IMG/VR virus record: IMGVR_UViG_3300044491_000211
Span: 1 to 27,473 of that record
Reading direction: 5' to 3' (one strand)
From: a virus
DNA: 27,473 bases
The notes under the pieces were generated by a model. That model saw only the letters and a program-made list of their open reading frames with translations, did no database searches and was not told the DNA's origin. Below, one piece after another: positions 18,699 to 20,598 of this stretch. Every line of letters starts with the position of its first letter. Within the stretch, counting starts at the first letter, position 1. Position numbers and translations under genes: made by a program.

Positions 18699-18844
18699 TC
18701 TGCGCAACATGTGACGGAACCGGCTTCATCGTTTTGCCGCGTTTCGTCAACACGCCGGACAGCGACGCGTGGACAACGGTGCGCTGCCCAGAATGCCAAG
18801 ACGAAGACGACTTCGATTGGCGCAATGAAGAAGAGGAAGAGTGA
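18695..18844 (+). CDS. 49-aa zinc-ribbon protein (DnaJ-type CxxCxGxG)
   Basis: A small protein starting at ATG 18695, which overlaps the previous stop; a longer in-frame start at 18614 lies inside the upstream gene and is rejected. It has CATCDGTGFI near the N-terminus and CPECQDEDDF later, giving two CxxC knuckles able to hold one zinc, and ends in an acidic run (EEEEE). Such ribbons are frequent in phage early regions. Partner unknown. Confidence 0.75.
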   Translation: MICATCDGTGFIVLPRFVNTPDSDAWTTVRCPECQDEDDFDWRNEEEEE

Positions 18845-19374
18845 TGACTAAGCAAGAAAATATTATTTCGATTGTATCCGAGGCCGTAGAAAAGGCTTGG
18901 GAAGGATCAAACAGCGCAAAGGAAGCATCAGGCAAATATCTGGTTATGCTCCAGCAAGATGATGTTTTGCGCGAAGAGGCTACACGCCGCCACTTGGAGC
19001 GCATCGCATATTTGGATGTTGTTGCGCAGCCCAGAGGCTACCGCGCGCGACTTAAACGTGCAGCACATCAAACTGTGCTGAGCAAGGGCGAGACGTCAAC
19101 GCCAGCCGTGTCGCTGAAGAACATGGCACCCGCATATGCCAAGGATATGTTTGAGCGTTGGCTGTTGCCCAATACCGGCATCTGCTTGGGCGATGCGACG
19201 AGCGAGGATCTTGAGCAGGCTATTATGCACGAGACATCCCGCAGCAAGCACCATGAGGGGCAGCGCAGCTTCTATTCTGCCATCAAGGCTCGCGTCACTG
19301 ATGATAAAGTCGTCAGAGATGTTTGGAATATCAGCGAAGTCAAAGCTGAGTATGAACAGGCTTTGGTAGAATAA
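18844..19374 (+). CDS. Conserved early phage protein, helical
   Basis: A 176-aa protein. ATG 18844 shares its first base with the upstream stop and has AGAGGA upstream; a GTG three bases earlier is also possible. It is helical and charged with no recognised motif (LERIAYLDVVAQPRGYRARL; APAYAKDMFERWLLPNTGIC; QRSFYSAIKARVTDDKVVRD). It is the last protein before the structured RNA array, which starts 10 bases after its stop. Co-transcription with the array is therefore likely. Confidence 0.6.
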   Translation: MTKQENIISIVSEAVEKAWEGSNSAKEASGKYLVMLQQDDVLREEATRRHLERIAYLDVVAQPRGYRARLKRAAHQTVLSKGETSTPAVSLKNMAPAYAKDMFERWLLPNTGICLGDATSEDLEQAIMHETSRSKHHEGQRSFYSAIKARVTDDKVVRDVWNISEVKAEYEQALVE

Positions 19375-19383
19375 TGTTTAACA

Positions 19384-19429
19384 GGGGGCCGTGGGAGCCA
19401 CGCAGAAGTGCCAAGTGATCTGCGCCCCC
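19384..19429 (+). repeat. Array unit 1
   Basis: Stem GGGGGC/GCCCCC (19384-19389, 19424-19429). Left interval CGTGGGAGCCA, hairpin GCAGAAGTGC at 19402-19411, right interval CAAGTGATCTGC. The loop is GAAG, not GNRA. Confidence 0.8.
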
Positions 19430-19440
19430 ACCTTACAACA

Positions 19441-19486
19441 GGGGGTCGTGGGAACTGCGCAGAAATGCCAAAGTCACACCGCCCCC
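19441..19486 (+). repeat. Array unit 2
   Basis: Stem GGGGGT/GCCCCC with one T-G wobble (19441-19446, 19481-19486). Left CGTGGGAACTG, hairpin GCAGAAATGC at 19459-19468, right CAAAGTCACACC. Confidence 0.8.
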
Positions 19487-19494
19487 GCCTTATT

Positions 19495-19541
19495 TTGGTG
19501 CCACTCGATCATCGCATTATGCCGAATACTGAGCGCGCCAA
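19495..19541 (+). repeat. Array unit 3 (divergent)
   Basis: Stem TTGGTGC/GCGCCAA (19495-19501, 19535-19541), one wobble. Left CACTCGATCAT, hairpin GCATTATGC at 19514-19522 with a three-base loop, right CGAATACTGAGC. The intervals still measure 11 and 12. Confidence 0.75.
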
Positions 19542-19542
19542 T

Positions 19543-19594
19543 GGGAAGGGTCATTAAATTGGCGCAGCAATGCCAGCTTGTCAGCACCCTTCCC
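19543..19594 (+). repeat. Array unit 4 (9-bp stem)
   Basis: Stem GGGAAGGGT/ACCCTTCCC (19543-19551, 19586-19594). Left CATTAAATTGG, hairpin GCAGCAATGC at 19564-19573 (GCAA tetraloop), right CAGCTTGTCAGC. Confidence 0.8.
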
Positions 19595-19606
19595 AACCAT
19601 TTAACA

Positions 19607-19652
19607 GGGGGCCATGTTCAGGTCGCAGAAATGCCATGCATAGTACGCCCCC
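19607..19652 (+). repeat. Array unit 5
   Basis: Stem GGGGGC/GCCCCC (19607-19612, 19647-19652). Left CATGTTCAGGT, hairpin GCAGAAATGC at 19625-19634, right CATGCATAGTAC. Confidence 0.8.
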
Positions 19653-19663
19653 ACCTTACAACA

Positions 19664-19709
19664 GGGGGTCGTGAATAGCCCGCAGAAATGCCTACGAAGA
19701 TGCACCCCC
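19664..19709 (+). repeat. Array unit 6
   Basis: Stem GGGGGT/ACCCCC (19664-19669, 19704-19709), a compensatory change against units 1 and 5. Left CGTGAATAGCC, hairpin GCAGAAATGC at 19682-19691, right CTACGAAGATGC. Confidence 0.8.
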
Positions 19710-19720
19710 ACCTTACAACA

Positions 19721-19766
19721 GGGAGCCACGCAAATGACGCAGAAATGCCAAGAAGCCCACGCTCCC
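19721..19766 (+). repeat. Array unit 7
   Basis: Stem GGGAGC/GCTCCC (19721-19726, 19761-19766), compensatory. Left CACGCAAATGA, hairpin GCAGAAATGC at 19739-19748, right CAAGAAGCCCAC. Confidence 0.8.
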
Positions 19767-19773
19767 AATTTAT

Positions 19774-19821
19774 TTGGTGCCGCTCAACACGCGCAGAGAT
19801 GCCACTCTACTGGCGCACCAA
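19774..19821 (+). repeat. Array unit 8
   Basis: Stem TTGGTGC/GCACCAA (19774-19780, 19815-19821). Left CGCTCAACACG, hairpin GCAGAGATGC at 19793-19802 (GAGA tetraloop), right CACTCTACTGGC. Confidence 0.8.
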
Positions 19822-19827
19822 CAACCA

Positions 19828-19871
19828 GAGGCCACTCCAAAAACGCAGAAATGTCAGGTACGCTTCGCCTC
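19828..19871 (+). repeat. Array unit 9
   Basis: Stem GAGGC/GCCTC (19828-19832, 19867-19871). Left CACTCCAAAAA, hairpin GCAGAAATGT at 19845-19854 (closing G-T wobble), right CAGGTACGCTTC. Ends 22 bases before the next start codon. Confidence 0.75.
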
Positions 19872-19893: not shown

Positions 19894-20598
19894 ATGGATA
19901 AACGTTACGAAGACCCAACCATTGCCAAGATATATCTGACTTGGCGCAACAGGCAGAACATGGTTCGCGCTGAAGCAAAGCTGGTGTTGCAGATTAAAGC
20001 AATCTGCCGCAGCTTTCGTGACGGCGACATCAAAGAAGCCAATAAGCTATTCGCTCAACTAAAGAAGGGCGAAGGCACAATGGATGAATACGCCGCAACA
20101 AAGCCACTATTTGAGGCAAGGCAGCCGCTCTTAGAAAGCCGCGCCGAGTTTGAAAAATGGCTTGTGGGGCTGGCAAAGGAGCTGCCAGTATCAACGTTTG
20201 TCGATAAGGTAAAAGGCTTTGGCCATTTGGGCTTGGCTGGCATTGTCGGCGAGGTGGGCGACTTTATGGAATACGAAAAGGAGCTTGACGGCATATATAA
20301 GCGCGCTGGGCTTGCCGTGATAGATGGGCAGAGGCAGCGCAAGTGCAGCAATGCGGAGATGGCATTGGCGCATGGATATAGCCCGTCACGTCATTCGGTA
20401 TTCTGGACGATTGGCGACAGCCTGCTCAAGAGCCAAGGTAAAGAAGAAACCGCTGGCCCGTATCGCAGGATATATGACACGCGCAAAACGCTTGAGCGCG
20501 AGCGTGTAGATAGCGATGGCCACGCGCATAATCGTGCAATGCGATACATGACAAAGAAGCTGGTGCGTGATTTATTTGTAGAATGGAAAGCGGCATGA
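19894..20598 (+). CDS. tasA: Nop-like Tas protein (TasA-type, no nuclease domain)
   Basis: A 234-aa protein at ATG 19894, chosen for AAGGAG at 19881-19886; an upstream in-frame start at 19774 lies inside the RNA array. Residues 10-100 are charged helices with coiled-coil character. Residues about 104-180 carry VKGFGHLGLAGIVGEVGDF, then YKRAGLAVIDGQRQR, and GYSPSRHSVFWTIGDSLLKS. This helix-hairpin-helix pattern is shared by the C-terminus of IS110-family transposases and by Nop-domain proteins that hold guide RNAs. The basic end has DGHAHNRAMRYMTKKLVRDL. No DEDD, HNH or RuvC motif is found, so it should bind RNA and direct it to DNA without cutting. With the array just upstream it forms a TIGR-Tas-like locus. 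A degenerate IS110 transposase is less likely: the DEDD half is absent and no element ends flank it. Confidence 0.78.
   Translation: MDKRYEDPTIAKIYLTWRNRQNMVRAEAKLVLQIKAICRSFRDGDIKEANKLFAQLKKGEGTMDEYAATKPLFEARQPLLESRAEFEKWLVGLAKELPVSTFVDKVKGFGHLGLAGIVGEVGDFMEYEKELDGIYKRAGLAVIDGQRQRKCSNAEMALAHGYSPSRHSVFWTIGDSLLKSQGKEETAGPYRRIYDTRKTLERERVDSDGHAHNRAMRYMTKKLVRDLFVEWKAA

Follow-up and report, generated by a model that had tools for sequence, protein, structure and literature searches.

As a succession of hairpins of fixed length and variable sequence, positions 19384 to 19871 of the virus record IMGVR_UViG_3300044491_000211 (IMG/VR) raise the question of what such an array encodes, with which protein it works and at what its variable segments are aimed. 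The stretch analysed, hereafter the window, is a 27.5-kb linear fragment covering positions 1 to 27,473 of that record. From the letters alone, a sequence-only reading had proposed a probable guide-RNA array of the tandem interspaced guide RNA (TIGR) type. The nine units do form an array, and this array belongs to the stem-loop kind of TIGR already published; with the effector gene that follows, it very probably constitutes a stem-loop TIGR-TasA system of a marine Rhodobacteraceae phage, whose likely role would be the RNA-guided, nuclease-free blocking of competing phages. The array is organised as follows, A and B being the two spacers of a unit:

19384..19871, + strand: stem-loop TIGR array of nine units, from the sequence and from the same array in 54 related loci
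19384..19429, + strand: unit 1, stem GGGGG/CCCCC, A TGGGAGCCA (19392-19400), B AGTGATCTG (19414-19422)
19441..19486, + strand: unit 2, A TGGGAACTG, B AAGTCACAC
19495..19541, + strand: unit 3, A CTCGATCAT (19504-19512), 12-nucleotide (nt) loop CGCATTATGCCG, B AATACTGAG (19525-19533)
19542..19595, + strand: unit 4, stem TGGGAAGGG/CCCTTCCCA, A TTAAATTGG, B GCTTGTCAG
19607..19652, + strand: unit 5, A TGTTCAGGT, B TGCATAGTA
19664..19709, + strand: unit 6, A TGAATAGCC, B ACGAAGATG
19721..19766, + strand: unit 7, A CGCAAATGA, B AGAAGCCCA
19774..19821, + strand: unit 8, A CTCAACACG, B CTCTACTGG
19828..19871, + strand: unit 9, A CTCCAAAAA, B GGTACGCTT

Each unit reads, in order, outer stem, box C (YCR), 9-nt spacer A, box D (C[G/A]), loop, box C ([C/T]CN), 9-nt spacer B, box D (C[G/A]) and outer stem, which in the window gives the pattern YCR + 9-nt A + C[G/A]CA...TG[C/T]CN + 9-nt B + C[G/A]. 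The conserved loop is CGCAGAAATGCCA with unit 3 as the sole exception, and the box-to-box core measures 36 nt in eight units and 35 nt in unit 3, the published core length of the processed RNAs (tigRNAs) being 36 nt (PMC12045711). All nine units lie where the sequence-only reading had placed them, on the + strand, and its fixed intervals of 11 nt on the left and 12 nt on the right recur in 9/9 units when the first box-C/box-D base pair is counted as outer stem; the 10-nt hairpin it described between them occurs in eight units, that of unit 3 being 9 nt (GCATTATGC). The outer stems of the window, namely GGGGG/CCCCC, TTGGTG/CGCCAA, GGGAAGGG/CCCTTCCC, GGGAG/CTCCC, TTGGTG/CACCAA, and GAGG/CCTC, are differing palindromes, so pairing has been retained despite sequence change. 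A stem search restricted to Watson-Crick pairs, with no preset arm lengths, returned equal left and right arms in 8/8 hairpins caught by the core motif, and the RNA fold of the array beats 100 of 100 shuffles (z = -2.97). Searching both strands of about 0.3 Mb with the strict unit pattern recovered the array units and one stray match in an unrelated phage (L005); as the pattern is thus nearly exclusive to array units, the nine-unit array is not a product of chance. No Rfam family matched the array.

The gene that follows starts 22 nt after the 3' end of the array:

19894..20598, + strand: tasA, a 234-amino-acid (aa) solo Nop-domain protein without nuclease domain, assigned by homology and preceded by an AAGGAG ribosome-binding sequence

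A Pfam search of the 234-aa protein gave no significant match. By phmmer, it is nonetheless related to TasR (PDB 9MTY, i.e., the 331-aa protein of PMC12045711) with an E-value of 1.5e-11 and an SDGHAHNRA stretch in common, and a profile built from 23 relatives retrieved TasR at 1.7e-15 and TasH at 0.006. Folding the single sequence performed poorly (predicted local distance difference test, pLDDT, 41), and the AlphaFold model derived from the 23-sequence alignment (pLDDT 81.5) was used instead. This model superimposes on TasR with a Z-score of 16.2 and a root-mean-square deviation of 2.7 A over 189 residues, residues 1-234 being aligned to residues 106-296 of TasR; further PDB matches are TasH (Z 14.1-14.6), recombinases of the IS110 family (about 12), and Prp31 and Nop5 (about 7-8), and both Foldseek and VIA rank TasR and TasH on top. 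Since residue 1 is aligned with residue 106 of TasR, there is no nuclease domain, which makes the protein a TasA. Neither the N-terminal RuvC or HNH nuclease that marks TasR and TasH nor the DEDD transposase domain that marks IS110 proteins is present, the protein corresponding only to the Nop-like part expected of a Tas protein.

Searches of IMG/VR provided 18 loci with a TasA 98-100% identical to that of the window and a further set at 33-85%. Parsing 54 related loci yielded 447 units, 299 of them distinct, with a 9/13/9 geometry in 430 of the 447 under a pattern permitting spacers of 8-10 nt and preferring 9. Entropy reaches 1.83-1.99 bits at all 18 spacer positions, i.e., almost random, against 0-1.3 bits in the loop. 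The boxes C and D beside each spacer (YCR, CR) pair and covary: at the edge, base 2 of box D and base 1 of box C combine as GC in 171, AT in 67, and GT in 50 of the 299 distinct units (total 288/299; Fisher p 1e-28), and at the loop as GC in 223, AT in 35, and GT in 30 (again 288/299; p 6e-26), both p-values overstating the independence of units that are kin by descent. The edges are variable stems, with 56 distinct stem sequences, as in the stem-loop subtype, and not the constant short repeats of the dual-repeat subtype. As such, the sequence-only reading was right about TIGR, a Tas gene lying next downstream, and wrong about the subtype, for which it had envisaged dual repeats.

Among close relatives, arrays comprise 6-11 units with identical stems in identical order, that is, fixed slots. 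The fraction of differing sites is 48% in spacers, 4.9% in boxes and loop, and 3.5% in tas, so that the identical intervals which would have spoken against guides are not what relatives display. Across 585 slot comparisons, the pair is the same in 63, one half is exactly shared in 43, each half differs by at most three bases in 49, a single half is close in 97, and no relation is seen in 333; where alleles are close, the changes are ordinary and rich in transitions (33:18). It follows that spacers are renewed within their slots, sometimes whole, sometimes one half at a time, and also through point mutations. The commonest pair among the closest relatives, found in seven arrays, is that of unit 6 (TGAATAGCC/ACGAAGATG). 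To the eye, alleles of one slot, read as A followed by the reverse complement of B, resembled codon variants of coding sites; as a test of the variable columns for 3-base periodicity lent this no support (p 0.97, 0.95, and 0.74), it is not used as evidence. Separately, TGGGAGCCA, spacer A of unit 1 in the window, recurs exactly or with one change as spacer B in several relatives (L013, L018, L009, and L017), where the partner spacers show partial similarity, as though a single target had been acquired in both orientations. More distant versions of TasA occur in Rhizobium phage RHph_X2_25, a Rhizobium esperanzae contig and a distant viral contig (L024 5300-6900, L089, L090, L093, L086), where they accompany hairpin arrays with other loops and box sequences, as judged by eye; stem-loop TIGR is thus wider in alphaproteobacterial phages.

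At what, then, are the spacers aimed? According to the published rules, A pairs with one strand and B with the other, with 8-nt 3' overhangs and gaps of 0-2 bp tolerated (PMC12045711), which give as target string A followed by the reverse complement of B, an orientation deduced here from the overhangs. For unit 3 this gives CTCGATCAT|CTCAGTATT, i.e., the 18-bp site CTCGATCATCTCAGTATT. With gaps of 0-2 permitted, IMG/VR holds 18 exact matches, all at gap 0 and in 13 distinct sequence contexts, and 17 of them hit the same codons, in frame (LDHLSI), of a T7-like primase-helicase gene carried by divergent contigs. For two representative target proteins, the nearest cultured relatives belong to Autographiviridae phages that infect Roseobacter. 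The site is found at the helicase gene in 9/9 of the cultured Autographiviridae roseophages examined, without mismatch in CRP-171 and CRP-113, while each of the remaining seven departs from it at one base; CRP-4 lacks the site. In INPHARED (50,697 phage records, 3,419 of which encode a homologous helicase), blastn recovered only CRP-171, CRP-113, CRP-114, and CRP-118 at 17-18/18 over the site, and 16 other alphaproteobacterial phages as well as RHph_X2_25 carry at least four mismatches. The match ends exactly at both spacer borders (9+9). Over 22 roseophage or related genomes, one of 256 real pairs has exact matches, against none of 12 x 256 shuffled pairs and a calculated expectation of 0.007; these genomes having been partly picked because of the unit 3 match, the unbiased support comes from the clustering in one gene in IMG/VR and the roseophage-only outcome in INPHARED. 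The paired neighbouring matches that the sequence-only reading had suggested seeking in phage, plasmid and alphaproteobacterial sequences were obtained for unit 3 in competing Roseobacter phages, and not for two frequent pairs searched in 385 alphaproteobacterial genomes. The eighteenth match (L116 5505-5522) falls close to the beginning of the gene for a T7-like RNA polymerase and is on the other strand; as it concerns one contig only, targeting is not claimed there.

With tas-adjacent tandem units, two short variable spacers each (8-12, mostly 9 nt), paired and covarying boxes, a Nop-domain Tas protein and, for unit 3 only, a DNA site at which A and B are predicted to lie side by side on opposite strands, the system shows every defining feature of TIGR-Tas that is open to sequence analysis, and it is assigned to TIGR-Tas on that basis.

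The carrier would be a phage of marine Rhodobacteraceae. Among INPHARED records, Roseobacter phages are the sole close DNA relatives of the window, and its portal is similar to that of a 39-kb Octadecabacter phage. Two segments of a tail gene (1-157 and 679-715) share 95-97% identity with the tail gene of roseophage CRP-1, which suggests recent exchange or a common host. The host of CRP-1 is FZCC0023, which also hosts five of the nine targeted roseophages; together with an identity of 95.5% between tail-gene segments of the window and CRP-1, this makes it plausible that the window phage and the targeted phages share a host. Two metagenomes, 3300025138 and 3300048033, each contain a contig with the unit 3 target (L109, L110, L119) and a tas-bearing relative of the window phage (L072, L057).

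The system is proposed to work as follows. The array is probably transcribed together with the flanking genes, and its RNA would be cut in the linkers into nine hairpin RNAs, hairpin release at linkers having been reported for the stem-loop array (PMC12045711). Each hairpin RNA would sit on a TasA dimer, one protomer at the edge C/D boxes and the other at the loop C/D boxes, and at an 18-bp site its spacers A and B would base-pair with opposite DNA strands. As TasA lacks a nuclease, binding of the TasA-tigRNA complex would most likely block transcription or replication at the site rather than cleave it. The targets would be rival phages that share the host cells, with unit 3 directed at the primase-helicase of Autographiviridae roseophages, needed for the replication of the rival, and the other spacers possibly at other rivals. 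That the phage thus wields a nuclease-free, dual-spacer, RNA-guided weapon against competitors, whose slot guides are swapped or mutated in place and directed to conserved genes for replication in other phages sharing its host, is considered fairly probable.

Several observations weigh against this proposal. A target was identified for one of the nine window units, at the expense of several pattern scans, and the unit 3 site sits in an abundant gene, at codons that are among its best conserved. No full-site match was obtained for 14 other target sequences in INPHARED, nothing above chance for the other pairs in 25 roseophage-type genomes, and no match for the two frequent pairs in the alphaproteobacterial genomes. 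Searches for promoter and terminator consensus at the locus, including sigma-70, returned none, and the host call draws on similarity of phage genes alone. In IMG/VR, the other pairs gave 1, 0, 0, 7, and 1 matches, judged as chance (the terminase of an apparently unrelated phage, unrelated contigs, no second spacer match). The pair TTGTTACCA/ATCTATGAT, common to two tas lineages and ten arrays, matches seven viral contigs (L094-L100), six of them with a 2-bp gap in IYDDGNK-coding DNA, probably by chance.

One alternative is a genuine TIGR-TasA whose unit 3 match is fortuitous, natural targets lying elsewhere, i.e., in host genes, plasmids or unsampled phages. A conserved codon stretch and the six different spacer patterns scanned in IMG/VR do raise the chance of such a match, only a single target emerged among 256 pairs, and other scans gave chance-like matches, e.g., TTGTTACCA|ATCATAGAT in unrelated contigs; yet a fortuitous match would hardly be expected to be exact to both spacer borders with zero gap and in the same gene in 17 contigs, to have its full site confined to roseophages in INPHARED, or to degrade to four or more mismatches in the other alphaproteobacterial phages and RHph_X2_25, and this explanation is deemed unlikely. 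Less likely again is a role in the phage's own biology instead of against competitors, such as regulation, help to the integrase, DNA bending or genome segregation: the lack of nuclease in TasA would suit it, and DNA bending and ParB-linked roles of TasA are discussed in PMC12045711, but no target above shuffled pairs was found in the flanks, the own genome or sibling genomes, and the near-random turnover of spacers better suits changing external targets. As for structured repeats devoid of guide function, e.g., attC-like recombination hairpins, attenuators or RNase decoys, strong stems and variable inner loops are what they would share with the array; the fixed 9+9 spacers, the covariation of C/D boxes in edge and loop and the Nop-domain effector adjoining the array in all loci make them highly improbable. 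The blocking of competing phages by TIGR-TasA remains the preferred reading.

Immediately 5' of the array stands a further gene:

18841..19374, + strand: 177-aa conserved protein, candidate partner, directly 5' of the array

Wherever the flank of a tas-bearing viral locus is long enough to show it, a protein of 170-180 aa with about 50% identity occupies the same position, even in a contig where TasA itself shares only about 52% identity, and a profile detects the protein in the distant locus L086 (2226-2714, E 1.7e-13). It had no match in INPHARED, and family searches gave no known family; profile comparison with the upstream gene of the Rhizobium phage is full-length but weak (probability 15%, E 0.0017). 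The protein may be an accessory or partner of TIGR, or a mere syntenic neighbour.

The discovery paper left open what spacers genuinely target, where they come from and what a TasA lacking a nuclease does (PMC12045711). The present phage family offers a handle on all three, with a TasA system in relatives of cultured roseophages, a natural collection of hundreds of spacer alleles among genomes that are otherwise almost the same and an 18-bp target (0-1 mismatch) in nine cultured phages, the unit 3 match being a rare candidate for a natural target of TIGR systems. If the proposal is true, it would represent inter-viral RNA-guided interference with a natural TIGR target, i.e., phages carrying guide arrays against each other. 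As far as the literature searched shows, the natural target candidate, the population-scale spacer turnover and the conserved upstream gene as possible partner are new.

Respective to known systems, the closest is the TIGR-TasA stem-loop array of a Peromyscus leucopus gut contig (PMC12045711, Fig. 7), which likewise combines a solo Nop protein with tandem two-spacer hairpins bearing C/D boxes and variable palindromic edges. In the phage array, though, the loop repeats in the true sense, with a fixed length and a sequence that hardly varies, a form described as a possible intermediate (PMC12045711), spacers are almost always 9+9, and the locus adds the conserved upstream 177-aa gene and a natural target candidate. 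TIGR-TasR (PDB 9MTY) and TIGR-TasH (9W02, 9VZX, 21KL) share a homologous Nop and coiled-coil protein, the 36-nt core and A and B on opposite strands of an 18-bp site, whereas the phage system has no RuvC or HNH domain, stems instead of short repeats at its edges, and a box D that is CG or CA instead of the UG described for TasR arrays (PMC12045711). IS110-family recombinases with bridge RNA (IS621, 8WT6; ISCro4, 9T56) possess a related RNA-binding domain (Z about 12); the phage system differs in lacking the DEDD nuclease domain and in having many small guides, not one bridge RNA. The archaeal box C/D small ribonucleoprotein (Nop5, 3PLA) has in common the Nop fold, the C/D boxes and paired guide segments, but the structural match is weaker (Z about 7.6), no fibrillarin or L7Ae partner was recognised, and the matched target is the DNA of another phage. 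Finally, CRISPR-Cas also places a variable guide array beside an effector, while the phage units carry two short spacers split by a loop, no Cas family appeared among the neighbouring proteins searched, and spacers are replaced in fixed slots in contrast to the leader-end addition of CRISPR arrays.
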